From assembly GCA_016234495.1 (NCBI GenBank), contig JACRBI010000004.1, positions 62,001-126,000 of the forward strand: a stretch of 64,000 bases of DNA. The letters run 5' to 3'. The notes beneath the pieces were generated by a model. The model saw only the letters and a list, made by a program, of their open reading frames with translations, was not told where the DNA came from and ran no database searches. The stretch's first letter is position 1, and each line of letters begins with the position of its first letter. The translations under genes were made by a program, and so were the position numbers. The stretch is from Chloroflexota bacterium (GTDB taxonomy: Bacteria; Chloroflexota; Anaerolineae; Anaerolineales; Villigracilaceae). Of this stretch, positions 11,902-52,489 are shown piece by piece.

Positions 11902-11973
11902 GCGGGTGTAGTTCAGTGGTAGAACGCTTGCTTCCCAAGCAAGATATCGAGGGTTCGATCCCCTTCACCCGCT
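11902..11973 (+). tRNA. tRNA-Gly (anticodon CCC), chimeric with prophage DNA
   Basis: The acceptor stem GCGGGTG/CACCCGC, a D arm, the anticodon stem CTTGC/GCAAG with loop TTCCCAA (anticodon CCC at 11934-11936) and the T arm GAGGG-TTCGATC-CCCTT all fold, with U73 as expected for glycine. The gene is the prophage target. The sequence up to 11949 matches both ends of the prophage, and the T arm and 3' acceptor half come from the phage side. The displaced original 3' half is at 52465-52489. Confidence 0.95.
11919..11949 (+). other. attL core of the prophage
   Basis: The 31 bp from the D-arm end through the anticodon arm to the variable loop are repeated exactly at 52435-52465. The anticodon stem-loop forms the symmetric core used by tyrosine integrases. 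Confidence 0.93.
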
Positions 11974-22767: not shown

Positions 22768-22816
22768 TTATTCCCCTCTCCAAATTATTTGGGGAGGGGC
22801 TGGGGGTGGGGTCTAC
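22768..22816 (-). repeat. GC-rich hairpin repeat (phage family, copy 4)
   Basis: The + strand CCCCTCTCCAAATTATTTGG folds with GGGGAGGGGCTGGGGGTGGGG. It lies between the coat and cement-like genes and ends at the coat stop codon. Confidence 0.65.
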
Positions 22817-23790
22817 AGGGCTTGTACGTTGTACAGCCATGAAATACTGCGCGGGTCGGTGATGAACAGGCCGGCCGCCCAATCCATTTCAACGTTCTTC
22901 AGCACGCCCGTCTGCCACTCAAAGGTCTTCATGCCGCCGTCATCCTGGAAGCCAGTCACATGCTCCGGCCCAAACTTGACGAACATCAACGAAGACTTGC
23001 CCGCGCTGCCTGTCTGCAAGCCGGTCGCGCCTTCGTCGTCCGCAAAAATCTTGGTGGTCTGGTCGGCCTTCAAGCCCATGTCAATGATCGCCGGTCCGCC
23101 CTGTCCCCAGGTCGAGATCGTGCGGCCAAAGCTGTCGGTCGTGGTGGTGTACAAACCCAACTGGCGCAGCCCGCTTTCCATCCGCAGCTTGATCGTGTCG
23201 CTGGTCAAGATCGCGTCACAGGTATGGTCGCGGCAGGCATACAAGGCCTTCTGCACCAGGTCAAAGAACGAGTTGAAGTTCGCGCTCAGGGTCGTGGCGT
23301 CAGGTGAAATATCAACCGCGCCGCCGTCGAAGATCTGCCCGCTGAAATCTCGCGCCATGCGGTAACGCAAACCAACCACGCTCTTGGTGTTCGCGCTCGG
23401 CGTGTTGTTGATGACATCGCTGTTCCAGCCGTAGGCCAGTGAAGTGGCGTACATCTTCACATTCCACGCGGCCGGGTCAGAGATCAAGTCGGGCTTGCCC
23501 GTCAAGCGGTGGTCGAATGAGACCTTGCCGCCGAACAGGTAGGCGTTCTCTTCGAGCGGTTCAATCTCGCCTACGCTGTGGGTGTAGCCTTCGTTCAGGT
23601 TGCGGTTTTGCAGAGTCGGCAGACTCTTGATGCGTAAGCCCTTCGCCTTCAAACTGTTGATCGAAGGAAACTGCATCTTGTCCAGCAAAAAACTTTCCTT
23701 GCGCAGGATGTCCACGATCCCGCTCGAAAGCATCTTGCCGTCCTTTTCAAGAAACTGGCTGTACTCAGCCAGGGTGATGTAACTTGCCAT
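22813..23790 (-). CDS. major capsid protein (HK97-type fold)
   Basis: The 325-residue protein begins MASYITLAEYSQFLEKDGKM, an N-terminal arm, followed by GIVDILRKESFLLDKMQFPS. The sequence and context (after portal and scaffold) match HK97-fold coat proteins of podovirus type. DAILTSDTIKLRMESGLRQL and FVKFGPEHVTGFQDDG fit the P and A domains. AAGGAG is placed for strong translation. It assembles the icosahedral shell with the scaffold encoded just upstream. Confidence 0.85.
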   Translation of the reverse strand: MASYITLAEYSQFLEKDGKMLSSGIVDILRKESFLLDKMQFPSINSLKAKGLRIKSLPTLQNRNLNEGYTHSVGEIEPLEENAYLFGGKVSFDHRLTGKPDLISDPAAWNVKMYATSLAYGWNSDVINNTPSANTKSVVGLRYRMARDFSGQIFDGGAVDISPDATTLSANFNSFFDLVQKALYACRDHTCDAILTSDTIKLRMESGLRQLGLYTTTTDSFGRTISTWGQGGPAIIDMGLKADQTTKIFADDEGATGLQTGSAGKSSLMFVKFGPEHVTGFQDDGGMKTFEWQTGVLKNVEMDWAAGLFITDPRSISWLYNVQAL

Positions 23791-24906: not shown

Positions 24907-24986
24907 TCTTCCCTCGCAAAATAAGGTATGTAAATCCACTCCGCCGGTATCAGCAGCGTGGTTCCGTCCACAAAGATAACTATCAC
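24903..24986 (-). CDS. possible 27-residue coupled peptide
   Basis: A GTG overlapping the stop of the giant gene (GTGA) opens a frame MIVIFVDGTTLLIPAEWIYI that ends exactly at the next ATG (ATGA). The chain of overlaps on both sides suggests translation. It is very short and may be only a bridging frame. Confidence 0.35.
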   Translation of the reverse strand: MIVIFVDGTTLLIPAEWIYIPYFAREE

Positions 24987-27900
24987 GGCTGGCCTCCATA
25001 CAACAAGGCCGGCACCACCTGCGCATCCAGCCACACCTGCACATCATCATACGGCTTGCCCGCCATCAGCCATTGCTGTTCAAGCGCCTTCCACGCGCCC
25101 TTGCCCAGCTTGCCGCCTGTCATGGCGTACATCCCAACATAATCCAAAAGCATGGTGCTCCACCCGCTGGTGTCAATCCGCTTGAATACATGCCCCCTAA
25201 AGATCGGCTCGTATTGCGGGTACGTTTCAAACCAGGTATCCTTCCAATCCCAATACTGCTTTAGTTCGGGGTGTTCAACCAGGTAGCGTGTGCGCTTGCT
25301 CTTCGGGAGATTGAAGTATTCATTCTCCTGCGTAAAGTAATTCGGGAATTTCTCCGCCCGCTGGCTAAAGTATTTATCCGTCACCTGTGTGATCTGCGGG
25401 TCATACTTCTGCAAAGGCGGGGTCGGGTTCTCGATTGCCGGCGCGGTCTGCTCCACATTCGGCACGCGCTTGCTCAACATCTGCGCCCAGCGGGTCAACG
25501 TCTCTACGTCCACATCCATAGGGGCGCGGGTTTCCTCATCCCGGAACGCTTCCTGAAAACCGCGCGCCTCAGCCTCGAATGTCTTCTGGTCTGTCTTCCC
25601 AAGCGCCATATACCCATCCCATATCTGGCTCACAAGGAACGATGATAGTCTTTCCTCCGGCTTCTTGTTCTTCGCAAGGTAGGCCTCATACTCAGGGTGT
25701 TCGTCAAAAAATTTCCCTATCGCTTTGTCGTCGCCCATGTCTTTCTTTTTCCAGGCCTCGTTCCACTCCTGCGCTAATCCTCGGTATTCCAGTTCTCCGC
25801 TCGGTAACAGCCCCGCCCCAAACAGTGAGGGCACGCTGGTCGCCGCAAGCCGCGCCACTCCCTGCCCAAAGTTATCCGCCGTCAAGCCGGCCATCATCGA
25901 AGACGCAAGCGGCACGCGCATGGCGAGCTCATACTTCACCCTCTCGCGCGCAAGGTCAAAGTTCGCGCCCGTCCGCTCCAGCATGGCTATCTGCGCTTCC
26001 TCCGCGCTGATATCCCCATCCGCAACCATGTTCGCAAGCTGGCGGTCTATGTAATATTCGCCGTACTCTCCAAACTCAGGCAGTCCCAATCCTTCCCGAA
26101 GCATCTGCTCAGGCTTCCCGATCAACCCAAGCACATCTCCAAACGGCTCCGCCCAGGTATTCTGTGTCACCGTGTCTATCGCCTGAGTCGTGTTCAAGAT
26201 CGGCGTCGGGTTTATGCTTTCCCTGCCGCCCGGAGATCCCGGAATATTCTTCACGCCCAGCAGCTTCAGCGGGGTGGTCAAATACCAGGCCGGTCCGAAC
26301 ATCATTCCCATAAAATCAAGCGGGTTTGAAATCGCACTCTCGCGCCGCATCTGCGCCTCGGCAAACGCCCGCTCCCACGTTGAGCCGCTGTGCGTCCGCG
26401 CCGCCTCCACAATCTCCGTCTCGCTTGCCCTGCCGTCCTGCGCCCATTCCTGTAACACGCGCTCGGCCTCCGCCTGCTGGCTGTTGGAGTCCCTCGTCAT
26501 CTGCTCGAACGGCCTGCCAAAGTTCGCAAACGGGAACAGTGTTTTCAACGGGTCAATGTACAACCCGTCGCCCATCCAGTCGGGCATCCACGGCGCGGGT
26601 ATCTTGATCTTGCCGCGCAATCGTTCAGGGATGTCACGCTCATAGCGGTTCTGCTGTCTCTTGATACGGGCATAGTTCGCAAACCACGAAGGCCGGTCCA
26701 GCGCGCGCAATGCCCAATTCATCATCGATCGCGTGTAATAAAACTGGTACGGGAAAAACTTCTCAAGCTGGCTGTCAAACCCATAGCGCCGCTTGTAGTT
26801 CAGCATCGCAAAATCGCGCTGGTTCTCGCCCCATCGTATCGTTGCCAGTTTCGCGCCCGCCATGTCGCCCTTTACCTGCTGCATGTACTTCCTCAGCATC
26901 TCCTGTCCTTCCGGGCTCATGTCGCGCATCGCGCCCTCTGGCGTCTTGTTATCCAGTCTCTTGATCGCCACGTCGCGCATCTTATCCAGCAGCGGCATCA
27001 CATGCTGACTCCATCCCTCGTCTTCAACCTCCGAATGCAGCACCACATCCGCCGCCTGTTCATACCCGCCCAATGGCATACGCGGGTCGGCATCCGGCAG
27101 TATCGGCGCATCCTGGTAAAGCGTTGGTTGCTTTGCCGGCGCATCGTTCCGAATCGGGAAGCGTTTCAGGAAGGCGTCGAGACTCTCAGGCGCAACGTAA
27201 AAGAAATTCCCAATCGCAGAGAATGACGCGCCGTTATTCATCAACACATCCTTATCCTTGATCCGTGCCTTGTCGATCACGATCTTATCCTCGCGCGCCC
27301 CGCCCCGTCCCATGTATAGCTCCCACTCTGCCACATCCGCGCCTGTGATCTTGATCCTGTCACCTGCTTGCAGGTCGATCATGGCCGTCTCTGGTTTATG
27401 TCCGCTCCCCAATATCTGCCCAAAGTGTTCGGCCACATCCTTAACCTTGCTGGTCTTTACCCGCAAGCCAGTTACATACTGGTTCTTCTTCTCATCAAAG
27501 AATTGCACCCAGCGCATCCAGGCATTCCCGCCTTGCAAGTACCTCTCGGCCACATCCGCGCCCGCTGTCACCACTCCCTTAACTTCGTTCATGTGCGGGG
27601 TAAGCACGCCGTCAATGATTCCGTACTTGCTCCCGTCGGCGGCTCTCACTTCGGTCATGCGTAGGTTGTCGCCCAAGTCCACCTGTCTGGTAATGTCGCC
27701 TGTCTGTGCGGCTGTATTGCGCTCGGCTGTATCGTCAAGTTCCGATCCAGCGTTCATGATCTCGGCGCGTTTGGCTGTGTACGCATCCATAATCTCGTTG
27801 GCAGTCTCAACCTCGATAGACTGCAAACCCATCAGGAACTTGCTAAGTGACTGTGAGTTAGTATCCAGTGTTGAACGTGGTACATCTGGTATCTGTGGGT

Positions 27901-30900
27901 CGCGGAAGAACTTATCAAGGAACGCCATCTTCCACTCAGGTTTGAACTCCTGCCATGCCGCATTCAGCGCAATCTTATCCAGCGTTGTGCCAAGTTCGAA
28001 TGTATCTGTAAGCGCACTGGTTCCCGTAGACTCTGCGCCGCCTTTGGATGTCGCGCCCAATCCCTTCATGCGGTTGGAGATCGTCGCTACAAACTTCTTC
28101 TCTCCTGCGCTGCCAGTGTGCATCACTGTGATGATCGGGCTGCTTACTTGTCCTGTGCGGTCTACCCGTCCAAGTTCCTGTTTGAAGTCTGTCGCGCTCC
28201 ATTCGTAATCGCCTACGATCAGGTGTATCCGTTTCTTGCCTGTTACATCGTGCAGGTTAATGCCCGTCTTGCCAGCTTTTGAGATAACGATCAGGTCAAT
28301 CTTATTATTCTGAAAGTCCTGCTGTGCCTGTATTCTGTCCTTGGTGGAAGTTGATCCGATCACAAACGCAATCCGATCCCCGAACGCATCCCGCAATACA
28401 TCCACTGGCGAAGGTAGACTCTCCAGGTCTTTCAAATCTTCTTTGAGCGTCAGCACTTCAACCAATGCTTCGGGTATCTCGGTCGGGTCGCTGAAGGTAT
28501 CCTTGCCGATCTTCTCAACCTTCTTTGTGTTGATCTTGTCAATCGCAGAGACAAGACTTCCAGACTCTCCGCTCGAATCGCCAACAGATACAATCGAGAT
28601 AACCGCCTGCTCTCCGCGTTCTATGGATGCGCGTGCCTCATCGATAATGCCAGGTAAACGCATGTTGAACAATGCCCGTTTTGCATCGGCCTGAATATCT
28701 CCATTGATACCGAATAGTGCCGCCGCCTTCTTTGCGCCTTCATTCATCGCGCCAAACTTCGACCATGCGTCATACATTCGCCTGTAAAGTTGAACTCGTT
28801 TGTTGAAGGATGCTTTTGCTTTTGCTGGCGGGATGTACTCTTTCACGCCAAAGTCCACACCTGCGCGTGAAATATCTCGCGCCATGTAACTACCCGCCAC
28901 TTTCAACTCGCGCATGATCTGCTCGGTGTGTGCTGGCGGGAGGGTTGAGTCGAAGGCACCCAATCCTTTCTTGCCCCACTTGCCGCTTTCAGCCTTCGAG
29001 AGAATATCGCTCGCGTCCCTCATCCCAACATCTTTTATGTCGGCTCGGTCGGGCGGGGAGAATGTTTCAGTATACGCTTGCTGTGCATCCCCAATAAAAC
29101 CTTGTATGTCGTTGGGTGATGCTTCATAACCAAGTGCGTCAAGCCGCTTGCCTACCAGGTCGGCAACGATGATCGCCTCCGTCTCTGTTTGGACTGGCGA
29201 ACGATAGCTTTTATCCTTTATCTCGAATCGGTAATAGTCATTTCTGTACTCGGTTGACTTGTAAAATCCTATCTCTCCAACTTTCCAGCCGTCATACTCG
29301 CCACCGTATTGGTTGGTAACCTTGGCTGGCTTGGCTCCTATTCTTTCTCTCTCGGCTTGCACTTTCTCCACCCACGTATCCACGTTGGCGCGGGCAGTCT
29401 GCTTCCGTTTCATCTGCTCAGGGCTTTCTTGCCCCGTAATCACCTTCACCCAATCATCAAAGCCATCCAAAGACCACACCTTCAAGCCGTACAGGTAGCG
29501 CAAGTCTGCCAGGTCTATGCCCGGTGTCGCAGTCAGATACAACATACTTGCCTTATCCCCGATCCAACTCTTGTGCAGGTCTGTCCAGGCTTGCCCTCGG
29601 TCTGTGCCGCTGTTCTTAAATTGGTGAGCTTCATCCACCACTACCACGTCTGCACGAAGTTCTTTTATCTTCGGTGCAAAATTCGCAAACTCGTTGGCTG
29701 TTACAAAATAAACTGTCGGCTCCGCAAAGGTTGGTATGGCTTCCTCGCCTTTCTTTACCTTCGGGAAGTTCTCGCCGCGCAGGAAGATACGTTTCGCTGG
29801 GTAATCTGTTGGGGCTTCACCTCTTGGGAATGCTCCGTTCTCGTCTGCCACGCTGTTATACACATGCGGGAACTCGCCATTCATCAGGTTAAGTACGTTC
29901 TGCTCATCCTTGGTAATGACCAGGATTTTCTTTTTCCCCTTCTCAATGCGGTCAAGCACAAAGGCCGCGCCCGTTCTGCTCTTGCCCATGCCCACATCAT
30001 CGGCCACCAGCATACCCATGTTGTGCTTGTCGTTCTGCTGAATGGCTGCCCACACCGGGTCGATATTTCCCTCATGCGAAAGTGCGCGGTTATTCATCGC
30101 CCGCATCACGGAGGGGGATGGTCTGTATGCTTCTTCAAGATCGGGGTATGGAACGCCCGCTAATCCTTTGGTTTCTACAACTGTGTTCGGGTGCGGATGT
30201 GCTACGTCCCCTTCTCCCAAAGGCGACCTTGCCAGATATTCAGCAAAGCTTCGAGAGTTCTTAACTTCCGCTTTGCCAGCGATAATCCTGGCTTTGAAAG
30301 CATCGGAGTAAGTTCTTCGTTCAACGCCTGCTGGAATGTTTGCGGGCTTGCCGTCCACCACCACGGCACGAGTATCCCCTCCCGCTCCTTCCAATTCAGC
30401 AGATCCCGTACCACGCTCCGCGACTCTCCCGTCAAGTCCATCCCCATCTCTACCAAGTCCCACTCGTTCTCCTCGGTCAAGAGGAATTCCAACGGGTCGT
30501 ATTCCAGCTTCGCTTGGCTTACCGATTCGCTCTGGCCTGCCTGCTTCACCCAGGCGGGCGGCGGGGTCAACGATTCCGCTGGCGTCTGGTCCGGCGACTG
30601 TCGGTCTAAGTTGTCTTTGAGCATTGTCTACTGCCTCCTGTGCGCGCTTCGGCACACTCTCTACCGCTTTCACGTATTCCGCTAAGGTCTTTGGTTGTGT
30701 GTCCCCATAATGTTCTACGGTTGGCACATCCAAAAGATGCGAAGTCTTGTCGATCACCACCAGCAAAGATGATACGTCCGTGCCTCTCTGCTTGTACGCG
30801 CCCGGTAGACTCTCGATCACCGCCTGCACGGTGTAATTCTTTTTCAGCCATTTATAAAACTCGCTCGGCTTGTTGGTGATAGCGCGCGTCTTCCTATCCA

Positions 30901-33900
30901 AAGTATACAACCAATTGGCTGGCATTACACCTGTCAATCTTCCGCCGTCTGGCATCCTTTGTAATGTCAGGTAGGTAAAGCGCTGACTCCAATCGTTCAT
31001 CTTCACCGGCACATTCACAGGCGTGCCATACTTGCCAGTTGAATACGCTCCCCAGGGCGGGTTGGTGATGACATTCGTCGCCCACGGCCCGGCCTTCTTC
31101 CCGTCCGCGATCACCCAATCCTTATCCATCAGGCTGATCCCTGTCGGTTCATACCCGATCAGGCTCAATACCTGCTGTCTGCCCGCGTCAATTTCATTCA
31201 CCTTTAGGGTGATGTCTTCGCGCCCAAAGAATTTATCAACCAGGTTCGCGGTTCCTGCTGTCGGCTCACCCAGCGTATCCCCTGCCCGCACATCTGCCAC
31301 CCAGCCCGCCGCCTCGCTGATCGTAATCGGCGTGCTGAATTGTTGCAGTTTCATCTTGCCCAATGTGCGCCGCGCCTCCGTCAAATTAGACTCAAGCGCA
31401 TCCATCGCCTCGATCCGCTCCTGCAAGCCCGCCCCGCGTGAGTCCAGTTCCGCCCGCACCTTGCGCGCCTGCATGTTGTACGCCCCCTCCATGATGTCAT
31501 AGGCTAAATTCAACTCGCCTTCATCATCGAGATTAAATCCAAGGTTCTTGATAAACGACTCAAAGTCGCGGCTCTTTGCAAACCAATCCTTCGCCTCGAT
31601 CTTCTCCACCAGCGCATTCAGTAACCGACTCTCACGGTTATCCACTGGTTCAACCTTCGGCGTTTCTTCCACCAATCCCTGCTTGATCTTGGCAAGGTTC
31701 TCCTCATACCTCATACCTAATCCCTCACCCCTAATTCCTTCCCCCTCCCCTCCCAGCATCTTGTCAAAGAACGCCCGCATCTCAGGCGTAAGGTTCACAT
31801 CAATGGCCGATCCAGTGATGACCGAATACACCTTGTACAGCCAGTTCCTAAAGTTCTTGAAGACTCTCGCCAGGGCCGGGGTCGGGGCTTTGCCATCCAC
31901 CATGTACCGCTCAAACCCGCGTGAAAACATCTCGTGTTCAAGCACGTACTTCGCCTCATCGAACGTATCAAAGGCGCGTGTCTCTCCGCTCGGACTCTTA
32001 TAGCCAAACGTCCCGTCATCCAGCTTCGTAATGCTGTGCCTGCCGTTCCCATTCACGGCTTCCCAAATCTGCCTTCCGCCCTCTGCCTTCTGCTCCATCC
32101 TCGCCCACTCCTGAAAGACTCCAAGGTCATCCAGCATCTTCACGTTGCCGCGCTCCGCCATGTCCTTCATCATTTGCAGGAACACATGCCCGTTCTCGTG
32201 GACGATGGTTGAAATATCCCCGCCCTCCCACGCGGAGATGATCGCCTTCCCGTCGAGGAATTGCACCCCCCCTTTATTAAATTGTTCCAGCGTGGTATTT
32301 TCCCGCTTGACTTTTTCAAGCCATTGCAGTACCCTGCTATTAGAGTTGCTTCCGCCCAGTTCCCCCGTCTTGTAAATGTCGGAAAGGATAGCGGAGGCAG
32401 CTTTCATATCCTCTCCAAGAATCACAAGATTATCGTAATAAAGATTTTTCCCTTTCCCTTCTTCCCGCACAATCAAATTAACAATCACCTGCTCGCCGTC
32501 AATCTTTACCCTGGCGGCATAGTTATGTACTGCTTCAATGTTCGGCCTGTTTTTTCTGTCTGGCTCGCTGAATAGATGGATCGCGTCTCTCATGATCCCG
32601 TCAAGGTTTTGAATTACGCGGATATTGACCGCCCCCTCGGATTTATGCGAAACAGTTTTATTAAACCCGCTTCTCGGAAATTCAATCACCCTCCCGCTGT
32701 CCCTATTCGTCACCTTCTCAAAAGATAAATACCTTTGCAGGGCGTTGGCAATCAGGCTCTTAATGTTCCCATTCCCCCCAAGACTGCGGCTGTCCACAGG
32801 TATTGACTCCATCGCCGCAAGGCGTTTTGCCTTCTGCGCGGCGCCGCCGTGAGAAGCATCCTGAAACAAAATTCCCCGCGCCTGCATAGCCACACTCTCC
32901 GCCATGCGCGCGCCGCGTTCCGATAACCCGTGCATCGTGTCCAGTATCGCTATGCGGTCTGCTCTTGTTTCATCACGCAAAGCAGAGAGAACATCCTGCA
33001 CACTGGTTCGTTCCAAAGCGCGGGCATAGCCTTCTATCTCTTCGGAGGTCATGCGCCTGTTATTGGTTTCAATTCTTCCGTCATCCTGCATCAACCCGCC
33101 GCGCTCCCCTTTCAGCACGTCGCCATACTTCGCGTACATCTCCTCTTTCGTCTTACCGTCCTGCTTCCCGATCCATTCCAGCGCCGAGTCGCTCACCTTC
33201 ATCCAGTCGGCAATCTCCTGCTCGCTGGCTTTCGGGAAGGCGTCTCTATATCTTTCCTCCAATAGCTCGCGCGTCATGGCTATATCTGCGGTCTGCTGTT
33301 GTTCCTCCACCGCCAGTTGTGAGCGCGTCATAGACTCTGCTATCGCTTCCTGGTCTGCCTCTGCGATCTGCCGCGCAATCACATCATCGAATACCTGGCT
33401 TGCGTAGGCTTGCAGGTTCGGGTCAAGGTCGTTCGGCATGTCGGCAATGATGTTCAACTTCTCCGCGTCATCCGCCGCATTCAACCTGTCCACCCAATCG
33501 GTTGCGCTAAACGGTTCCGCATTCTGCATTTCGCTCGCTTCGCGTGCTTCGATCTCCTCAAGCTGTGCCACCGCCGCGTCTTCCTTCTGCTGTTCAATAT
33601 GCGCGGCCTCGTCTGCCTTGATCGCTTTCTCATTGGCTGTGTAATCATGCCCAATCGGGTAAACCTTCTCGCCCTGGTAGGACCGGTCGAGCAATTCCTG
33701 TAACTGCTTCACTCCGCCTATATCATCGGGTCGGTTTACGTCAATCGCGTACTTTCCTTCTTCAGCAACCAGCCGCACAATATCGCTAATGTCGCGCCCG
33801 CCTGTGGTGAACAAACCCGGCATGGTATTGGCTTTCGCATCGTGCGCCCATTCCGCCTTCTTCGCAATGTCCAACCCGCCCATCTTCTTGATATAAACCA

Positions 33901-36900
33901 ACAGCGAAATATCCTTTGCGATCTTCGCCTTCTTCTGTTCCATGGCTTTGGCCGGCGCTTCCCTTACCACGCGCTCCGCCTGCACATCTACATCCCTCAA
34001 ATTGAGAATGGACTTAACCACTTCTGGTTTCAGTCTGCCATCGTCCAACCCTCTCAGGTCCGGGAAGCCGCCGTACTTCTCGTCCATCAGAGCGCGCATA
34101 AGCGCGTGCTTGTCCTTGCCGCCGCCCAATACACTGCGGTCAAAGTTCCCGCCCTGCGCCCAATACCCCTCGGCCACATCCCACACCGCCGAAACAGCCG
34201 CCGCCTTTTCCTGCGCCCTGCTCTCGATGTCTGCCTTCAACTGTACCCGCTCGGCTTCATCCACCTTGCCCTGCGCGATCCTGTCTAAATTCGCTATCGC
34301 CTCCTGCTTGATCTTCGCCATTTCATAGATCATGAATTTATACGTCTCGCCCCAAAACTTCTTGGCCGCAATCTGGCGCAGTTCCAAAGGCACGCCCGCC
34401 GCCCGCGCCTGTTTCTGTTCATCTCTAAAGGTCTGCTGGCGCGTTACCATCTCCTTGCGGAATTTGGCAATCTGTTCGTAAGCCTGCCGCGCCGCCTCGC
34501 CCACCTCCGCGTTCTTGAAAAGCAATTCATACTGCTTGCCGATCAAGTCCGCCATGCGCAGAGTGTTGGCGTCCTCGCGCGCAAAAGCCTTCTTGAAAGC
34601 CTTGTCTATGTTGTATTCGATTGCGTCCCGCTCTGTGTATTGCAGCGGGTTATCCCAATCGTCGCGCCATTTCTCAAAGTGCCCGCTCCTCTGCTCGCGC
34701 ATGTAACGGTATACATTGTCCATCGTGTTAACCGTATCGCCCATCGTGGCAAGAAACTGCCGCGCAAGCGGGTTATCTCCCAGCCCCACGCCCTTTATAA
34801 TTCCAAGGTAGGTACTGGCTCTCAGTGTATTAAAGAATCTATACTCGTCCGTGCTTTGTTCATAGGCGCTGTCCCATGTCAACTTCCGCATCTTCGGGTC
34901 AAGCATATCCATACTGTCGGCGGCTATCCCCATCCGCTCCAAGTGCTGAATATGTTTCTCCATCCCCATCTCTTCGATCTCTGTCGCAATATCTACAAAC
35001 GCCTTCGCGCCTTCCGTGGTCAACCGCTGGCTGATCTTCTCCGCCCGCGCCACCATATCGCGCGCCGCGTCCATATCAATCTTGTTCCTTGCTTTGCGCC
35101 TTGCCCTGTCGAACGCCGCGAATACCTTCTCGCGTGTGTCCACGCCTCTCAGGTTATCGTCAAGGCTGTCCAGCACGCCCGCCTTTTCCAAAATATCCGA
35201 AGCCTCCGCGCTGGTCTTGCCCGCCATCTGCGCCGCCTCATGCACCAATGCGCGCGCCCGCAGTCCCTTCTCGCGCCCGAAGATCGCGCTCTCCACCTCG
35301 CGTATGTTCATGCCCGACTCAATCGCGCTGTGCATCAAGTTCGGGTCAAGCCCCGCCGCCTTTACCGCCGCCTTCAACTCAGGCGACATTTCCTTGAAGC
35401 CTACGTTCCGCTTCCACGTCTGCCCCCAAAAGTTCTTCATCGCAATGACGTAACCCTGCTGGCCTTCCAACTTCTCGAACGCCGAAGACAATCTGGTAAA
35501 CGGCATCATGTTCCCGGCCTTGCTTAACATCCTCTGCGCCCATGCCAGTGCGCCCTTCGTCTCGGTCTGCGCCGCTCTTATCGCCTTGTCTGTCGCAACC
35601 GCATTTTCCCCCGCCTGGCTAAACTCACCCGCCATGCCAAAGCCCTCATGCAGGCGGGTCGGGGTCGCGCCAAATCTATCCATCCACTTATTGATCTGCC
35701 TCGGAGTCATGTACCCGTATATGCCGGTCGCCGCCCGGTGTACCATGTTGCTGATCCCATTCGTCAGCGCATAACCGGGGCTTCCCCCCAGCAATAGGAT
35801 GGACTGCGCCGCTTTCAACAAGTGCGCGGTTCGTGTTGTAAATGAGTCTGGTTTCAGCCCCAACTGTTTGGATACCCACGTATCGAAATGCTCTGCCATA
35901 TCCCCAAGCATCGAAGCCCGCCACTGACCGGGGTTCCACGGCAGCGCCCCTTCCCCATCGAAGATGTCTACGATCTGCTTCAACGTCTCAGGCTTGAATG
36001 TGCCCGCCTCCACATCGGCCAGTAACGCCCGCGCCGCCGGCGACTCTGACCGCCGCGCCTCATTCACGATCCGCGCAAAGTCCTGCTGGTATGTGCCGCG
36101 TTTCGCCCAATCGTCAATCAGCTTGCCGGGTTCGGTTCGCAGAATACTCGCAATCTGAAACAACGGTTCGCGGTTCGGCGCGCCTGCCTGCCATTCAGCA
36201 ACCCGCTTATCCAGCACGTCCGCCGCGAACGCCTTGATCGCTGGCTGCACCGTGTACCACTCCGGGCTGTCTGCCAGTTTCAACCCCATCTCAGCCCACA
36301 CCGCATTATCCCCGCCCGCAATCCTGCGTACAAATCTCGCCGCGTCTTCCGGGTCGTCAATCACCGAAAGGATCGCGCTCATATTCTCAAAGAAAAAGTT
36401 CTTCCCCAATTCAGCCCTTGCGCCAGGCTGAAGCGTGCTCATCTCCTGCAACCAGTTCAACTTTGTGGGCTTGTCCAGCAATCCCATGTTGCTGAATTTC
36501 CCCGCCCGTATCTTCCCTTCGCTTGTCACCCCTGCAATCTGCCGCCCCATCCATCCCAATTGATCCACCTGAAAAGATGGGTCAATCGTCTTCGCCATTC
36601 CCTGCGTCTGCACCAATGCGCGGTACTTGCTGATAGCCTCCTGCACTCCGCGCGTTCTCGTAAACGCCGCCTCCCCCACCTTGTTCCCCGCCAACTTAGC
36701 CACCCTCCGCCCCACTACACTCTGTGCCTGTGGCATAACATTCAGCGGGTCGATTACTGCCTGACCGATCATGTCGCCAATCTGCGCTTTGATCCCCGTC
36801 TGCATCTCGGTCATCACTTCGCGGTAGTTCCTGCCCTTTGCGATCTCAGCCCGCGCCGCATCAATCCGCTCGATCCAACTTTGCTCCAACTCAACGGGCA

Positions 36901-38047
36901 TCGCCGCGCCAAGATACAACTCCTCACCCTTGTATTTCTCAGGGTGACGTACAAGGTCTAACATTACCCCTGTTTCAAATAAAGCAGGGATTAACTTCGC
37001 CGCGTCTGTCCAATCTAGCCGTCCCTTCCCAACCTCCCGCGCCGCCTGATGTGCTGGCAAAAATGTCTCAAAGAAAATTGATCCCGCATTGAAAGACTCT
37101 TTGTTCAGTACGTCTATTACCTTGCGGTTCGGGTCGCTGGCGGCGTTGGCTATCTGCGCCCCCATGCCAATGCTTTTTTCCGCAAACTCAGCAAGTAGGT
37201 TCAGGTATCCAAACGCTCCCTTGGTTACATCCTTTGCTTGTTGCCAATCCCATGTAAATTTATTATCGCCCTGCTGCCAGGCTTCCTTCGTCTGGTCATA
37301 TTCACTCGCTCCTGCCGCTGCCCCCAATACGCCTCCCACTACACCAGCTACACCCATCGCCACGGGGTTCAGCGTTCCTACTGCCATCAATGCTCCCTGT
37401 ATCGCTCCCATTTTTGCAGGGCTGGAAGACATCTCATAATATGTCTTCTGCCACCAGGGTAATTGATCCCAATCAAAATTAAAGTCAGACAATATCTGCT
37501 GTTGAACAAACTGCGGGTACTGCGTTATCTTGTTCTGCTTGTAAAAGTTCGGGTCTTTGAGGATGTTCTTTCGATCCTCGATCAATACGTCCGTCCAATT
37601 GGCGCGGCCTGCCTTCACTTCCTCGGCGCTCGCAAACTTCATTACAGGTCTCGGCATCGCCGTCTCAGCGCGGATGGTCGGCTCTGTCCCGTAGGTGTGC
37701 GGCTTCACCCGTACCAGCAATCCATTATCAGACTGCGCGAATACTGGTTCATTCGCATTGTATGGCACGGCCTGCTTGGGTCGCTGAATTGGCTGTTGTG
37801 GCTGCGCTGTCGGCGGGGCATAGTTCGGCTGTGTGTTTCCCTGCGCGTTGTTGTCAATCGCATTGACTCCCGTCTTGCCAAAGTCACGCAGGCGCACACC
37901 GGCATTGGCATATCGCCGTGATACTTCATCCGCGCTCATCCCCTTGGTCTGGTAGTTGAGCAGCCCCTGACTTTCCAAATACCTGTCCATCCGTTGGCGT
38001 TCCGTCAAGAGTTTCGGGTTCTGCCACTTGTTATAACCTTTAGCCAT
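24983..38047 (-). CDS. giant polyvalent virion protein: metallopeptidase-like, N6-adenine methyltransferase and SNF2/SNO-type helicase domains
   Basis: The single frame codes for 4354 residues, about a third of the prophage. In order it has a low-complexity N-terminus (PPTAQPQQPIQRPKQ), a hydrophobic stretch near 206-245, a long helical region and a zincin-type HENGH at 1950-1954. A methyltransferase follows, with GEPTAGTANLV (motif I) and NPPW at 2329-2332. An SF2 helicase has Walker A GMGKS at 2686-2690, DEAH at 2805-2808 and QELGRVDRTGQ from 3290. A long C-terminal region of mixed helices and amphipathic segments ends it. Methyltransferase plus helicase in one huge phage protein matches DarB-like antirestriction proteins and the polyvalent proteins injected with phage DNA. 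Lying between portal and scaffold genes fits a virion role. AGGAGAATT precedes the ATG. Catalysis is inferred from motifs only. Confidence 0.88.
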   Translation of the reverse strand: MAKGYNKWQNPKLLTERQRMDRYLESQGLLNYQTKGMSADEVSRRYANAGVRLRDFGKTGVNAIDNNAQGNTQPNYAPPTAQPQQPIQRPKQAVPYNANEPVFAQSDNGLLVRVKPHTYGTEPTIRAETAMPRPVMKFASAEEVKAGRANWTDVLIEDRKNILKDPNFYKQNKITQYPQFVQQQILSDFNFDWDQLPWWQKTYYEMSSSPAKMGAIQGALMAVGTLNPVAMGVAGVVGGVLGAAAGASEYDQTKEAWQQGDNKFTWDWQQAKDVTKGAFGYLNLLAEFAEKSIGMGAQIANAASDPNRKVIDVLNKESFNAGSIFFETFLPAHQAAREVGKGRLDWTDAAKLIPALFETGVMLDLVRHPEKYKGEELYLGAAMPVELEQSWIERIDAARAEIAKGRNYREVMTEMQTGIKAQIGDMIGQAVIDPLNVMPQAQSVVGRRVAKLAGNKVGEAAFTRTRGVQEAISKYRALVQTQGMAKTIDPSFQVDQLGWMGRQIAGVTSEGKIRAGKFSNMGLLDKPTKLNWLQEMSTLQPGARAELGKNFFFENMSAILSVIDDPEDAARFVRRIAGGDNAVWAEMGLKLADSPEWYTVQPAIKAFAADVLDKRVAEWQAGAPNREPLFQIASILRTEPGKLIDDWAKRGTYQQDFARIVNEARRSESPAARALLADVEAGTFKPETLKQIVDIFDGEGALPWNPGQWRASMLGDMAEHFDTWVSKQLGLKPDSFTTRTAHLLKAAQSILLLGGSPGYALTNGISNMVHRAATGIYGYMTPRQINKWMDRFGATPTRLHEGFGMAGEFSQAGENAVATDKAIRAAQTETKGALAWAQRMLSKAGNMMPFTRLSSAFEKLEGQQGYVIAMKNFWGQTWKRNVGFKEMSPELKAAVKAAGLDPNLMHSAIESGMNIREVESAIFGREKGLRARALVHEAAQMAGKTSAEASDILEKAGVLDSLDDNLRGVDTREKVFAAFDRARRKARNKIDMDAARDMVARAEKISQRLTTEGAKAFVDIATEIEEMGMEKHIQHLERMGIAADSMDMLDPKMRKLTWDSAYEQSTDEYRFFNTLRASTYLGIIKGVGLGDNPLARQFLATMGDTVNTMDNVYRYMREQRSGHFEKWRDDWDNPLQYTERDAIEYNIDKAFKKAFAREDANTLRMADLIGKQYELLFKNAEVGEAARQAYEQIAKFRKEMVTRQQTFRDEQKQARAAGVPLELRQIAAKKFWGETYKFMIYEMAKIKQEAIANLDRIAQGKVDEAERVQLKADIESRAQEKAAAVSAVWDVAEGYWAQGGNFDRSVLGGGKDKHALMRALMDEKYGGFPDLRGLDDGRLKPEVVKSILNLRDVDVQAERVVREAPAKAMEQKKAKIAKDISLLVYIKKMGGLDIAKKAEWAHDAKANTMPGLFTTGGRDISDIVRLVAEEGKYAIDVNRPDDIGGVKQLQELLDRSYQGEKVYPIGHDYTANEKAIKADEAAHIEQQKEDAAVAQLEEIEAREASEMQNAEPFSATDWVDRLNAADDAEKLNIIADMPNDLDPNLQAYASQVFDDVIARQIAEADQEAIAESMTRSQLAVEEQQQTADIAMTRELLEERYRDAFPKASEQEIADWMKVSDSALEWIGKQDGKTKEEMYAKYGDVLKGERGGLMQDDGRIETNNRRMTSEEIEGYARALERTSVQDVLSALRDETRADRIAILDTMHGLSERGARMAESVAMQARGILFQDASHGGAAQKAKRLAAMESIPVDSRSLGGNGNIKSLIANALQRYLSFEKVTNRDSGRVIEFPRSGFNKTVSHKSEGAVNIRVIQNLDGIMRDAIHLFSEPDRKNRPNIEAVHNYAARVKIDGEQVIVNLIVREEGKGKNLYYDNLVILGEDMKAASAILSDIYKTGELGGSNSNSRVLQWLEKVKRENTTLEQFNKGGVQFLDGKAIISAWEGGDISTIVHENGHVFLQMMKDMAERGNVKMLDDLGVFQEWARMEQKAEGGRQIWEAVNGNGRHSITKLDDGTFGYKSPSGETRAFDTFDEAKYVLEHEMFSRGFERYMVDGKAPTPALARVFKNFRNWLYKVYSVITGSAIDVNLTPEMRAFFDKMLGGEGEGIRGEGLGMRYEENLAKIKQGLVEETPKVEPVDNRESRLLNALVEKIEAKDWFAKSRDFESFIKNLGFNLDDEGELNLAYDIMEGAYNMQARKVRAELDSRGAGLQERIEAMDALESNLTEARRTLGKMKLQQFSTPITISEAAGWVADVRAGDTLGEPTAGTANLVDKFFGREDITLKVNEIDAGRQQVLSLIGYEPTGISLMDKDWVIADGKKAGPWATNVITNPPWGAYSTGKYGTPVNVPVKMNDWSQRFTYLTLQRMPDGGRLTGVMPANWLYTLDRKTRAITNKPSEFYKWLKKNYTVQAVIESLPGAYKQRGTDVSSLLVVIDKTSHLLDVPTVEHYGDTQPKTLAEYVKAVESVPKRAQEAVDNAQRQLRPTVAGPDASGIVDPAARLGEAGRPERIGKPSEAGIRPVGIPLDRGERVGLGRDGDGLDGRVAERGTGSAELEGAGGDTRAVVVDGKPANIPAGVERRTYSDAFKARIIAGKAEVKNSRSFAEYLARSPLGEGDVAHPHPNTVVETKGLAGVPYPDLEEAYRPSPSVMRAMNNRALSHEGNIDPVWAAIQQNDKHNMGMLVADDVGMGKSRTGAAFVLDRIEKGKKKILVITKDEQNVLNLMNGEFPHVYNSVADENGAFPRGEAPTDYPAKRIFLRGENFPKVKKGEEAIPTFAEPTVYFVTANEFANFAPKIKELRADVVVVDEAHQFKNSGTDRGQAWTDLHKSWIGDKASMLYLTATPGIDLADLRYLYGLKVWSLDGFDDWVKVITGQESPEQMKRKQTARANVDTWVEKVQAERERIGAKPAKVTNQYGGEYDGWKVGEIGFYKSTEYRNDYYRFEIKDKSYRSPVQTETEAIIVADLVGKRLDALGYEASPNDIQGFIGDAQQAYTETFSPPDRADIKDVGMRDASDILSKAESGKWGKKGLGAFDSTLPPAHTEQIMRELKVAGSYMARDISRAGVDFGVKEYIPPAKAKASFNKRVQLYRRMYDAWSKFGAMNEGAKKAAALFGINGDIQADAKRALFNMRLPGIIDEARASIERGEQAVISIVSVGDSSGESGSLVSAIDKINTKKVEKIGKDTFSDPTEIPEALVEVLTLKEDLKDLESLPSPVDVLRDAFGDRIAFVIGSTSTKDRIQAQQDFQNNKIDLIVISKAGKTGINLHDVTGKKRIHLIVGDYEWSATDFKQELGRVDRTGQVSSPIITVMHTGSAGEKKFVATISNRMKGLGATSKGGAESTGTSALTDTFELGTTLDKIALNAAWQEFKPEWKMAFLDKFFRDPQIPDVPRSTLDTNSQSLSKFLMGLQSIEVETANEIMDAYTAKRAEIMNAGSELDDTAERNTAAQTGDITRQVDLGDNLRMTEVRAADGSKYGIIDGVLTPHMNEVKGVVTAGADVAERYLQGGNAWMRWVQFFDEKKNQYVTGLRVKTSKVKDVAEHFGQILGSGHKPETAMIDLQAGDRIKITGADVAEWELYMGRGGAREDKIVIDKARIKDKDVLMNNGASFSAIGNFFYVAPESLDAFLKRFPIRNDAPAKQPTLYQDAPILPDADPRMPLGGYEQAADVVLHSEVEDEGWSQHVMPLLDKMRDVAIKRLDNKTPEGAMRDMSPEGQEMLRKYMQQVKGDMAGAKLATIRWGENQRDFAMLNYKRRYGFDSQLEKFFPYQFYYTRSMMNWALRALDRPSWFANYARIKRQQNRYERDIPERLRGKIKIPAPWMPDWMGDGLYIDPLKTLFPFANFGRPFEQMTRDSNSQQAEAERVLQEWAQDGRASETEIVEAARTHSGSTWERAFAEAQMRRESAISNPLDFMGMMFGPAWYLTTPLKLLGVKNIPGSPGGRESINPTPILNTTQAIDTVTQNTWAEPFGDVLGLIGKPEQMLREGLGLPEFGEYGEYYIDRQLANMVADGDISAEEAQIAMLERTGANFDLARERVKYELAMRVPLASSMMAGLTADNFGQGVARLAATSVPSLFGAGLLPSGELEYRGLAQEWNEAWKKKDMGDDKAIGKFFDEHPEYEAYLAKNKKPEERLSSFLVSQIWDGYMALGKTDQKTFEAEARGFQEAFRDEETRAPMDVDVETLTRWAQMLSKRVPNVEQTAPAIENPTPPLQKYDPQITQVTDKYFSQRAEKFPNYFTQENEYFNLPKSKRTRYLVEHPELKQYWDWKDTWFETYPQYEPIFRGHVFKRIDTSGWSTMLLDYVGMYAMTGGKLGKGAWKALEQQWLMAGKPYDDVQVWLDAQVVPALLYGGQP

Positions 38048-38112: not shown

Positions 38113-38826
38113 TTATCCTTTAAAATTCCAATTGTACAAATTCATCAGCCACGACGGTGTTCTCTGTTGGTATCCACCCCCACCGCCCCCGCGACCACCA
38201 CCATAACCGCCTCCTGTTCCAGTTCCAGCCCCGCCCCCGCCGCCAGTCGTAGGAGGAGGAGTCGCAAGCGCGTATTCTACATTCGCGTTTCTGGTGTTCC
38301 CCGTCCATGTGTAATCTTCACCACTCGGCGGGTTGAGCGCGGCATTCCCGCCGCTGAAGAATGAGCCTGTCAACATCCCAGGCTGCCACGCTACGGGCGT
38401 CATTGTGCCGTTGCCAGTCCGCACCCAGCGCGTCCCTCGGCTCGTATCCACCACCCGCGCCCCTCCAACTCCCTCACCCATCCGCACTACGTTCCCGCCT
38501 TCCGCAAAGAATGAACCAGTCGGCATCAGCGGCTTATTCCACGCGGCCTTAAATCCGTTGGTCGTCGGCGTCTGAAATCCGTTATATGGCGAGTTGTCGT
38601 ACAAGCCCAGGTTATTACTTGGCGCGTATGGGTTTACAAATGGCGCGTTCTCAGCATCAATCTGTTCCTGCGCCCATGCGGGTATCGCTCCGCCGAAACC
38701 TCTAGCGGTAGGTTCTTCCTCGCCCTTCCCCATGTTCCCCTTCTTCGTTCTCTGTGGTCTCGGCGGCCTGGGCGGGTTGTTCCACTTCGGGGCGGGTAAT
38801 CCCTCCCATTCAGAATCTTTCGGCAT
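38113..38826 (-). CDS. Gly/Pro-rich virion protein
   Basis: The 237-residue protein is low-complexity. Its N-terminus is Pro- and Lys-rich (APKWNNPPRPPRPQRTKKG), the middle has two copies of a TGSFF-EGGN type motif (TGSFFAEGGN, TGSFFSGGN), and the C-terminus is a long Gly stretch. It lies between portal-associated and giant genes and is probably a disordered virion linker. The function is unknown. Confidence 0.65.
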   Translation of the reverse strand: MPKDSEWEGLPAPKWNNPPRPPRPQRTKKGNMGKGEEEPTARGFGGAIPAWAQEQIDAENAPFVNPYAPSNNLGLYDNSPYNGFQTPTTNGFKAAWNKPLMPTGSFFAEGGNVVRMGEGVGGARVVDTSRGTRWVRTGNGTMTPVAWQPGMLTGSFFSGGNAALNPPSGEDYTWTGNTRNANVEYALATPPPTTGGGGGAGTGTGGGYGGGRGGGGGGYQQRTPSWLMNLYNWNFKG

Positions 38827-38827: not shown

Positions 38828-39037
38828 TTATTTACCTCCGTTCTCCAACATATTCATCAAGCCCTCGTACTCATCGGGCTTGGCCGTCATAAACTGTTCC
38901 TTCAATTCGTCGGGCAGTCCTGCCCACATCTGCCGCAGTTGCGCCAGTATCTGTGGCTCCATCAAATCAGCCACCACCTCGCGCATCACCGCCTGCACCT
39001 CCGCCTGCGCTTCCAGCATCACATCCCGCAGATCCAT
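38828..39037 (-). CDS. small helical protein following the portal
   Basis: The 69-residue helical protein MDLRDVMLEAQAEVQAVMRE starts on the portal stop as TAATG. Coupling to the portal suggests a head-assembly partner. No family is recognised. Confidence 0.65.
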   Translation of the reverse strand: MDLRDVMLEAQAEVQAVMREVVADLMEPQILAQLRQMWAGLPDELKEQFMTAKPDEYEGLMNMLENGGK

Positions 39038-40689
39038 TACATCCTCTCCATGTCCGTGTTCATCGGGTCGGTCTGCGGCATCTGCTCAAATCCCTCTTGC
39101 GGCATGGGCGGCATTGCTCCCTCTCCACCCTCTGGGGGTGGGGTCGGCATTCCGCCGCCAGAGGGCTGGGGTGGGGCGCTCGGCATCCCCATCACTGAGT
39201 TCACCATCTGCTTCATGATCTCAGGGTTCTGCACAATCCCGCCAACAATCGCCTTGACCATCGCCTCCTTGATCGTCTGCTTGCGCATCTCGTCGCTGTC
39301 GCCAATCTGCAAAAGGTTGCTGTGCTTCCACTCGTCTGATACCAGGTCGCCCAAACTCTGCGCCACCTGCGCATTCCTCAGCTTGTCCTGCGGTAGGTTC
39401 GGCTCAAGCGAAACTTCCAAATCCAAATCGTCAGGGATTTCATTCGGCGCGATCAGCGTGTTCTCGATCCCCTCGTCCTTGATCCGTTGCAAAATATTCA
39501 GGAACACATCGCGGAACGACATCTCAATCGCCCGCTGGCTGTCCACCAGTGGCAGTTTGCCCGCGCTTGAAAGCATTGCCAGTCCGCTGAATGTCCCATC
39601 GTTACTGCCAAATCCCAGGGTGGATTGCTGAATGGTAGACTCCCCGCCGATCTCCTTTAGCAAAGCCCGCCACTGGAAAATCACCGGGTCAATGATCTTG
39701 TCATCCACCTGCTGCGCCTTGGCAATGATGTACCTCACTCCGCCTGCATACTCCACGCGGATGGACTCAGGCACGTTGTCAGGGTCAATCGCAAGCAACG
39801 GCCCCACCAGCCCGCGCATATTGATCGCCGTCGAAACCGCCGTAAGCAGTGCGTTCTCGCGCTTGTCCAATCGGCTCTTGGCTTTCGAGTACAGGAACGA
39901 TCCCATCTGTCTCTCAGGCTCGCTGAATAAACTGCTGCCCCCCGCGTACCTGCTTATAACTGGCACGCCGTTCAGACCATGCGCCCCGGCAAACAACTCG
40001 CCTTTCATTTCGTCGCAGTACACCAGCCTGTTCTCGCAGTCGTAAATATCGTTCACCGTATAATCTTCATCGGGCTTCGCGTTCGCGTCCCAACGTTCAT
40101 TCAACACACTGCCTCTCAGCTTGTACTTCCAGATGTGCGAGAGCAATCCAAACTCGCCCCATTCCGGGTAACTCTGCTCAGGGTTTATCGAGCGGATCAA
40201 AAACGGACTGTGCCGCAGTATCCCCTGCATCTGTCTCTGCTTGTACGGGTTCTTCGTCACCGCCATCAGGTCGCCAATAGACTCAGAGTACAGCACCACC
40301 GGACCATACAGCACCGCCGATAACGCCGCATCGCTCTCGATCCGCGCCCGCCTGTATTCCCCGCTCACACGCAAGATGGTCTTCAGCGCCTTCTCGATCT
40401 TGTCTGCATACTGCGCCTTGTCATCACCGCTTCGGGCGGTAATGTGTATCTCGCTCGTGTCCAGCAGGCGCACCATCCCCACCACCTCATTGCGCGATGA
40501 CGGGCTGACCGTGATCGCCCAATCCTTCTCGTCCACCTTGCTATTGTTCGGGCGTTTGTACTCATCTTCCATGAAGTACATCTCACGGTAACGCGCATAT
40601 AAGTCGCTGTCCCGCCGGCCGTATGCGCTCATCACCCGCTTGGCGTGCGCCTTCATCTCTGCCACATCAATTTTCTTGTTGTCTACCAT
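39037..40689 (-). CDS. portal protein
   Basis: The 550-residue protein follows the large terminase with a seven-base overlap, as portals usually do. It starts VDNKKIDVAEMKAHAKRVMS-like (MVDNKK) and contains YAGGVRYIIAKAQQVDDKII and IPDDLDLEVSLEPNLPQDK, segments typical of podovirus portals, which form the dodecameric DNA channel. The C-terminus (about 505-545) is Pro/Gly/Met-rich and coincides with a GC-rich repeat of the phage hairpin family read in frame (39118-39180). AAGGAG precedes the ATG. Confidence 0.82.
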   Translation of the reverse strand: MVDNKKIDVAEMKAHAKRVMSAYGRRDSDLYARYREMYFMEDEYKRPNNSKVDEKDWAITVSPSSRNEVVGMVRLLDTSEIHITARSGDDKAQYADKIEKALKTILRVSGEYRRARIESDAALSAVLYGPVVLYSESIGDLMAVTKNPYKQRQMQGILRHSPFLIRSINPEQSYPEWGEFGLLSHIWKYKLRGSVLNERWDANAKPDEDYTVNDIYDCENRLVYCDEMKGELFAGAHGLNGVPVISRYAGGSSLFSEPERQMGSFLYSKAKSRLDKRENALLTAVSTAINMRGLVGPLLAIDPDNVPESIRVEYAGGVRYIIAKAQQVDDKIIDPVIFQWRALLKEIGGESTIQQSTLGFGSNDGTFSGLAMLSSAGKLPLVDSQRAIEMSFRDVFLNILQRIKDEGIENTLIAPNEIPDDLDLEVSLEPNLPQDKLRNAQVAQSLGDLVSDEWKHSNLLQIGDSDEMRKQTIKEAMVKAIVGGIVQNPEIMKQMVNSVMGMPSAPPQPSGGGMPTPPPEGGEGAMPPMPQEGFEQMPQTDPMNTDMERM

Positions 40690-52434: not shown

Positions 52435-52489
52435 GTAGAACGCTTGCTTCCCAAGCAAGATATCGTGAGTTCGAGTCTCATCACCCGCT
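52435..52489 (+). pseudogene. attR and displaced 3' part of the host tRNA-Gly
   Basis: Positions 52435-52465 repeat the attL core exactly. Then the T arm GTGAG-TTCGAGT-CTCAT and acceptor CACCCGC with T continue. Joined to the 5' half at 11902 it rebuilds a normal tRNA-Gly, so this is the original host 3' half. Confidence 0.92.

Follow-up and report, generated by a model that had tools for sequence, protein, structure and literature searches.

A giant prophage protein from a Chloroflexota bacterium with conserved terminal shells around a putative exchangeable payload slot

Polyvalent proteins, a class published in 2017 by Iyer et al. (PMC5512222), combine unrelated enzymes in a single phage protein encoded among the late genes, as exemplified by WP_004096050.1 from an Acetonema longum prophage, and that survey already presents both the concept of an injected multi-tool and the proposal that an embedded metallopeptidase frees the cargo. 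DarB of phage P1 is a large, virion-associated protein linked to anti-restriction, in which an adenine methyltransferase is followed by a SNF2-class helicase; it is described as a head protein whose N-terminal 30 residues are enough to direct a reporter into the capsid (PMC9024508). Gp69 of the Burkholderia podophage JC1, a DarB-like protein of 4515 residues, is reported from the virion with 51 unique peptides (PMC9144972); the virion RNA polymerase of phage N4 is described as a giant ejected chain with N-terminal, central enzyme and C-terminal domains (PMC12633501); and podovirus ejection proteins are portrayed as mosaic, with the capacity to swap a hydrolase domain (PMC8954989). Here we analyze a 4354-residue protein encoded by a prophage in a 64,000-nucleotide stretch of a Chloroflexota bacterium genome (GCA_016234495.1, contig JACRBI010000004.1, positions 62,001 to 126,000; hereinafter, the window), and present evidence that its flanks are the conserved core of a protein family and enclose what appears to be an exchangeable slot for enzymatic payloads.

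Like the polyvalent proteins, this giant unites unrelated domains in one chain, is encoded between portal and capsid genes and contains an LPD3 domain (Table 1), and its relatives carry further domains specific to that class, namely ART-PolyVal, ddrB-ParB, PBECR5 and LPD1/5. The vocabulary common to the two groups comprises the zincin-like metallopeptidase (MPTase), the methyltransferase-SNF2 dyad, ADP-ribosyltransferase (ART), GGDEF, ddrB-ParB, PBECR and LPD domains. With respect to layout, the survey's description sets polyvalent proteins apart from multidomain layouts such as secreted toxins, which combine a delivery part with a variable toxin end (PMC5512222). In contrast to the surveyed proteins, as they are described there, the giants analyzed here have constant N-terminal and C-terminal parts (hereinafter, shells), with the variable part inside, and do resemble such a toxin layout. 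The N4 virion RNA polymerase, which contains a zincin domain (PMC5512222), resembles the giant by description, with an RNA polymerase as its central enzyme, and the hydrolase-swapping ejection proteins, as outlined in PMC8954989, could be considered a milder form of the carrier-payload idea. We found no description of these shells or of this layout in a literature search that mostly left subscription papers and preprints outside. The recognized payload domains and the polyvalent concept were known already, and the layout with constant shells and an inner slot seems to be new.

We searched IMG/VR with an alignment of five sequences over the C-terminal 710 residues; 66 stretches matched, and 50 loci were confirmed. 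The comparison set comprised 59 members (loci are cited by L numbers), from which most duplicate and near-duplicate contigs were left out; close pairs, such as L078/L091 and L049/L051, remain. The sequence-only reading of this DNA had proposed a single 4354-residue frame at 24983-38047, and this proposal is borne out: the frame runs for 4354 codons from its ATG without interruption, an AGGAG ribosome site lies just upstream, and a chance or artefactual frame can be ruled out because 58 of the 59 largely non-redundant relatives align to it. When the relatives covering most of each 100-residue bin of the window protein are counted, 38-43 of the 58 cover residues 501-1100 and 48-54 cover residues 3701-4300; coverage amounts to 10-13 over residues 1301-1700, 27-29 at the peptidase, and 0-1 over residues 2101-3500, which hold the methyltransferase and the helicase. 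The very long flanks remarked upon in the earlier reading are indeed present, and rather than idle length they constitute the conserved core of the family, the enzyme domains being the variable component. What that reading missed is that, to judge from the alignments, the flanks form a conserved carrier and the middle an exchangeable slot.

The shells remain alignable to those of the window even where identity falls to 17% (N) and 26% (C). AlphaFold predicts the C-shell (39-row alignment) to be nearly all helical, with a mean pLDDT of 76.9 and a pTM of 0.56, and the core of the N-shell (residues 370-1300, 31-row alignment) to be almost entirely helical, with values of 74.1 and 0.47, respectively. 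In a hydrophobicity scan, the top stretch of the window protein is a Gly/Ala-rich, moderately hydrophobic segment around residue 229, and in 15 of the 25 relatives examined the strongest stretch, again only moderately hydrophobic, falls within residues 180-330. We detected no convincing match to either shell in Pfam (window and L002 shells), PHROG (window) or the PDB. The C-shell profile had no PDB match, and the N-shell profile yielded eight marginal matches to unrelated proteins, the best with E = 0.0044 over 89 positions. Foldseek searches of the shell models against BFVD gave best E values of 0.12 and 4.8e-3, with TM-scores of 0.10 and 0.15. With VIA-align, the best Z-score was 6.2 over 62 residues for the C-shell and 13.1 over 241 residues for the N-core, the latter a generic match to a designed helical switch protein.

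The slot between the shells could be measured in the 46 of 60 sequences (window included) in which both shells are bounded; 14 were left out. Its length falls into two classes, short (20-319 residues, n = 17, 12 of them at least 190) and loaded (610-2872 residues, n = 29), with none between. Accordingly variable is the length of the whole giant, 1801-4698 residues with a coefficient of variation of 0.27 across the 29 members that are not cut by a locus end, compared with 0.05 for the portal, 0.08 for an 868-residue protein and 0.13 for the head protein; another neighbor, a 262-residue family, reaches 0.35, possibly an effect of its profile capturing longer open reading frames. In the short-slot member L004, the N-shell extension is shortened as well, without model positions 1390-1520.

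Could these giants be ordinary polyvalent proteins shuffled throughout, with the apparent slot a product of sampling a single phage lineage? Domain shuffling is, by the survey's account, general in polyvalent proteins (PMC5512222), recruitment of all members relied on a single C-shell or a single portal clade, additional residues interrupt a shell in four members, and beyond the middle region the Pfam scans covered just the window, L002 and portions of L003 and L004. We nevertheless regard this explanation as very improbable, given that the shells align to such low identities, that slot length is two-peaked across the 46 members, with at least five changes between the loaded and short states on the C-shell tree and at least seven on the N-shell tree, and that no Pfam family matches the shells of the window or L002.

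The contents of the slot are diverse. Pfam scans at the curated cut-off covered 33 relatives (three giants or giant fragments and 30 middle regions) and identified payload families in 14 of these: ddrB-ParB in six, ART-PolyVal and GGDEF in five each, and PBECR5, RadC, LPD5 with LPD1, and SNF2/Strawberry-notch once each. Below the cut-off, ART was seen in L022, L025 and L036, and GGDEF in L025. The other 19 had no family above the cut-off, seven of them being short-slot forms; the same holds for 12 of the 26 long-middle relatives scanned. Across the loaded forms, the payloads thus include ADP-ribosyltransferase, GGDEF, ParB-like, RNase-like and unrecognized kinds. The methyltransferase and the helicase of the window giant are rare in this company: the methyltransferase profile matched one other shelled giant, L037 (5.6e-7), and none of the portal-recruited loci, and the helicase models matched one other relative, L043, among the 33 scanned. 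Middle regions with no Pfam family above the cut-off occur in L015, L019, L020, L021, L028, L030, L031, L035, L036 and L038. Long payload blocks, possibly undescribed domains, are shared by L002, L020, L030, L038 and L044.

Multiple comparisons point to exchange of payloads between carriers. In the C-shell tree, the short-slot member L016 is sister to L022, which carries MPTase and GGDEF (SH-aLRT branch support 99), and the short-slot member L004, with 32% of columns filled, is sister to L003, which carries ART (support 96). The shells of L016 and L022 are 67% and 78.5% identical and the DNA on both sides 71-75% identical, and no similarity was found between their slots. Conversely, L013 and L071 have shells that are 26% and 29% identical, the latter figure over 107 aligned residues only, because the locus of L071 ends there; still, they share a 558-residue payload block with 60% identity (residues 1864-2410 in L013, 2249-2769 in L071), which in L013 spans the LPD5 and LPD1 matches and which lies on opposite sides of the MPTase in the two proteins. 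We compared payloads pairwise at E <= 1e-6, leaving aside the MPTase and the 345 residues that follow the N-core. C-shell identity is 50% or more in 37 pairs, of which 16 have no payload in common and 21 share at least 29 aligned residues; of the more distant pairs, 65 of 369 share at least 80 residues of payload. Taken together, these comparisons indicate that payloads are partly inherited and partly exchanged. The window payload has nothing in common with those of L002, L014, L015, L019 and L020 in pairwise comparison at this threshold, and a block of 118-124 residues that the window shares with L013, L017 and L022 is probably the end of the N-shell extension.

The one component that accompanies loading almost throughout is the MPTase domain (called at a domain E < 1e-8), which is present in 27 of the 29 loaded members and in none of the 17 short-slot ones (Fisher p ~1e-10, kinship ignored). 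When kinship is taken into account, the N-shell tree provides seven independent pairs, in which the MPTase goes along with loading in 6.3 on average and never in the opposite direction (sign test, median p 0.031, range 0.016-0.063). The peptidase-like part recognized in the earlier reading has the expected anatomy: an HExxH motif with a conserved downstream glutamate supplies three predicted zinc ligands, and in an alignment of 28 sequences, window included, H1950, E1951 and E2039 are present in all and H1954 in 27. Above the cut-off, the best ART, ddrB-ParB, SNF2 and PBECR5 stretches lie between the MPTase and the C-shell where an MPTase is present. A rule that payload enzymes always occupy this position was dropped because GGDEF precedes the MPTase in L029 and L044, as do LPD5/LPD1 in L013, the same block following the MPTase in L071.

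An association of this kind is compatible with two roles. The peptidase could release the payload; alternatively, it could simply be the commonest payload, acting on host proteins, with the payload working while still joined to the shells. The lack of a fixed place for the MPTase in the slot, with payload blocks on either side, fits the latter role, as does L017, in which an MPTase occurs without a Pfam-recognized payload; moreover, the N4 virion RNA polymerase is, according to PMC5512222, packaged unprocessed despite its zincin domain. However, the MPTase is the one recognized module in nearly all loaded forms while other payloads turn over, and its active-site residues are kept across shells that are 26% identical. 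We therefore consider the host-directed role unlikely, albeit a serious contender, and favor release.

The enzymatic domains downstream of the peptidase form the dyad that had invited comparison with DarB. The landmarks singled out from the sequence, HENGH at 1950, NPPW at 2329 and a DEAH helicase at 2686-3300, were all found, with DEAH at 2805 and the other helicase motifs within 2683-3300, and profile searches confirmed both the methyltransferase and the helicase. PHROG searches assign to the giant two large families of unknown function (residues 1497-2100 and 2119-2436) in addition to helicases. No Pfam model matches the methyltransferase region, and this sequence alone produced five weak matches in the PDB, none of them a methyltransferase. 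In contrast, a profile built from the window and four phage homologues matched the EcoR124II M subunit (6.4e-14), EcoKI (~3e-7) and TaqI (5e-6). The methyltransferase motifs are STP at 2238, EPTAG (motif I) at 2261 and NPPW (motif IV), and the TP motif, EPTAG and NPP(W/F) are kept in the alignment with the four homologues; in the window, tryptophan replaces the Y/F of the DarB-type NPP(Y/F) active site. The helicase is recognized by Pfam (AAA_34, 9e-14; Helicase_C_4, 3e-22) and has weak SNF2-family matches in the PDB, and its Walker A, DEAH, TATP, V and VI motifs are intact. An LPD36 domain ahead of the methyltransferase was not found in the Pfam scan, the existence of a Pfam LPD36 model being unchecked.

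An adenine methyltransferase located N-terminal to a SNF2-class helicase in one chain reproduces the order and motifs of the DarB-type dyad, and the resemblance to DarB thus stands for the order and kind of the modules. Direct similarity to P1 DarB is marginal, with a best E of 0.004 confined to the C-terminal helicase lobe, so that a close relationship is not supported; DarB has no shell match, and the giant differs from it in the Strawberry-notch type of its helicase and in the added metallopeptidase. The closest relatives of the methyltransferase in phage records are gp3 of Bacteroides phage BS-TP4, the N-6 methylase protein of Acinetobacter phage MD-2021a and H66_0060 of Pseudomonas phage H66, which is annotated in GenBank as verified by mass spectrometry; the helicase also matches in BS-TP4, MD-2021a and Ruegeria phage 45A6. 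None of the first three proteins matches the N-shell or C-shell profile. Gp69 of JC1 can be likened to the giant by its description as a virion-associated protein with a methyltransferase-helicase pair (PMC9144972). In BS-TP4 (L009, 1511-17686), the 5391-residue gp3, the nearest match to the methyltransferase-helicase pair, is encoded directly upstream of the portal and could possibly represent an independent type of carrier. The metallopeptidase domain has a separate relative in Bbp10 of Bordetella phage BPP-1 (31% identity over 177 residues), which has no shell match and adjoins bbp9 and the tail gene mtd. Although Bbp10 (L007, 9874-16032) goes elsewhere by the name of lysin or crystallin-motif protein, its metallopeptidase domain, with the motif HESGH, belongs to the same family as that of the giant.

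The genomic position of the giant is conserved. Scanning with a portal alignment retrieved 27 loci, five of which end within 2.7 kb; in all 22 loci with at least 5 kb beyond the portal, a shelled giant follows shortly after it, usually with one small gene between. Twelve of these 22 loci lie on contigs new to the set, two of the twelve having giants of equal length and scores. Because members of this group supplied the portal profile, the result speaks for this clade only. Of the 56 giant-bearing loci retrieved earlier (counted with duplicates and without the own-genome copy), 33 have a recognized scaffold-like or head family downstream and 29 a recognized portal upstream; the remaining loci have short flanks or neighbors that the window-based profiles do not recognize, as in the short-slot clade L047, L051 and L057. 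Reversed gene order around the giant was not seen among the 56. In the window itself, the placement between portal and scaffold genes proposed earlier holds for the portal, by profile and conservation; the scaffold label derives from position and conservation, no PHROG or Pfam profile naming that gene. In L072, whose portal is the closest to that of the window among the 27 (62%), the giant is a short-slot form of 2287 residues.

The conserved place between the portal and the scaffold-like gene, together with the existence of short-slot forms, which leave only a role for the shells, would also suit an assembly factor that is not ejected: the shells would act in procapsid assembly at the portal, and the methyltransferase and helicase would modify progeny DNA before packaging, while still in the cell that produces it. 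We deem this quite improbable. ADP-ribosyltransferase, RNase-like and GGDEF payloads would presumably bring little benefit once the cell is committed to lysis, and P1 DarB and JC1 gp69, proteins of the same methyltransferase-helicase kind, are described as present in the virion (PMC9024508, PMC9144972).

Sequence comparison supports the domain identities, the constancy of the shells, the variability of the slot, the lateral exchange of payloads and the association of peptidase with payload. On these grounds, we consider it reasonably probable that the giant is a virion-carried ejection protein, a carrier with an exchangeable payload slot that here holds a DarB-like pair which the peptidase may release. 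The constant helical shells (~1300 and ~700 residues), encoded along with the portal and head genes, are core parts of the phage group; under this scenario, they would position the protein inside the head, close to the portal, and then carry it through the tail with the DNA. The slot between them is short in some members and occupied by exchangeable enzymes in others, here LPD3, the metallopeptidase, the N6-adenine methyltransferase and the SNF2-class DNA translocase. After entry, the peptidase would cut the chain and free the payload, and the methyltransferase-translocase pair could track the incoming DNA and methylate or shield it against host restriction, as DarB does for P1.

Several observations weigh against this scenario. 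We found no virion proteomics for shell-bearing members, and the mass-spectrometry precedents share with the giant the kind of methyltransferase, H66_0060 being without a shell match. Searches with the two shells gave no convincing sequence match and no confident fold match to known ejection or internal head proteins, such as the podovirus types T7 gp14-16 and P22 gp7/16/20, the models being of middling confidence. The shells are not perfectly uninterrupted: L046 has ~215 extra residues in the C-shell, and three divergent members have ~240-260 extra residues in the N-shell (L084, residues 636-950; L075, 632-925; L083, 614-861), possibly a second insertion point. The shells are also rare in hosts: of the 152 genomes of the family to which the host belongs, three, the own genome included, have a C-shell; two shell-bearing relatives sit in Chloroflexota genomes. 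The trees were built quickly and have long branches. With regard to the peptidase, its link to loading partly reflects the space available, a slot of less than ~150 residues being unable to hold the domain; L084 and L025 are loaded and have no MPTase match; and the copy in L026 (residues 1407-1579) matches the profile without an HExxH motif and is possibly inactive. Of the 14 members outside the set of 46, four have an MPTase match (L003, L043, L060 and L075) and ten have none; several of these ten are cut, but L037 and L059 are long. Finally, the metallopeptidase profile had no convincing match in the PDB, and because no solved structure matches, the zincin label rests on the ligand pattern and the description in PMC5512222.

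A broader generalization, which we advance tentatively and hold to be somewhat short of probable, is that the temperate podovirus-like phages of this group share a universal injection chassis, a single ejection protein not described otherwise, with one slot that comes with its own protease. The payload modules swapped between phages would comprise the anti-restriction dyad, ADP-ribosyltransferase, GGDEF cyclic-dinucleotide synthase, nucleases and many unrecognized ones. Such a chassis would parallel the polymorphic toxins, in which delivery parts stay constant and effectors vary, except that in the phage protein the variable part would occupy the middle of the chain and not its C terminus. Protein injection by phages is well established, but deliverability is hard to read from sequence; the short and loaded forms of one carrier, as well as related carriers bearing unlike payloads, separate the presumed delivery parts from the cargo. 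Each loaded slot amounts to a list of candidate early-infection effectors, and the published proposal of cargo release by an embedded metallopeptidase (PMC5512222) becomes directly testable.

The giant belongs to a prophage of 40.5 kb, bounded by a 31-nucleotide exact repeat and containing integrase, terminase, portal, head protein and endolysin genes (Table 1). The flanking terminase, portal and head genes, together with the repeat, rule out a host gene. At 13,065 nucleotides, the giant gene takes up 32% of the prophage, in agreement with the third estimated from the sequence. A scan for sigma-70 promoters and terminators ahead of the giant gene returned one promoter-like site, on the opposite strand, and no terminator.

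Table 1. Features of the window prophage and of the giant protein (aa, amino acid positions or length)
Feature	Coordinates	Strand	Basis or remark
Attachment site inside tRNA-Gly(CCC)	11919..11949	+	31-nt exact repeat with 52435-52465
Major head protein	22813..23790	-	PHROG 2.5e-27
Scaffold-like protein, 239 aa	23809..24528	-	Position and conservation downstream of giant
Giant gene, 4354 aa	24983..38047	-	Single open frame
C-terminal shell, aa 3650-4354	24986..27100	-	Nearly all helical in model
Strawberry-notch/SNF2-class helicase payload, aa 2618-3432	27752..30196	-	AAA_34, ResIII, Helicase_C_4
N6-adenine DNA methyltransferase payload, aa 2135-2481	30605..31645	-	Alignment and profile match to EcoR124II M, EcoKI M, TaqI
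Zincin-like metallopeptidase (MPTase), aa 1911-2103	31739..32317	-	HENGH 1950-1954, predicted third ligand E2039
LPD3 domain, aa 1767-1870	32438..32749	-	Pfam PF18798, 3.4e-19
N-shell extension/linker, aa ~1301-1640	33128..34147	-	Common mainly to nearer relatives
N-terminal shell, aa ~1-1300	34148..38047	-	Helical, ending in long helices
237-aa gene between portal and giant	38113..38826	-	Similar genes in L017, L021
Portal	39037..40689	-	PHROG portal 5e-4; family conserved in relatives
Terminase large subunit	40683..42203	-	PHROG 6.3e-36
Integrase	46474..47322	+	PHROG integrase 4.8e-28
Second attachment site	52435..52465	+	31-nt exact repeat

Among the neighboring genes, the 237-residue protein encoded between portal and giant had no match in the Pfam scan of the window, and a small open reading frame at 24712-25050, which overlaps the end of the giant gene, belongs to a family found only in the window and the own-genome copy L005. 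The Pfam model LPD38 had no match in the own genome or in the controls. The circular element L008/MW202608 (41.8 kb) is similar in size to the window prophage, with a giant of 2156 residues compared with 4354; this combination of like element sizes and unlike giants may reflect a packaging limit, under which added payload would come at the cost of other genes. Beyond the right end of the prophage, five consecutive GAF-rich genes on the plus strand (53448-63814; 1295, 529, 558, 479 and 582 residues), some with HAMP or MASE11 regions, are probably a host signaling cluster.

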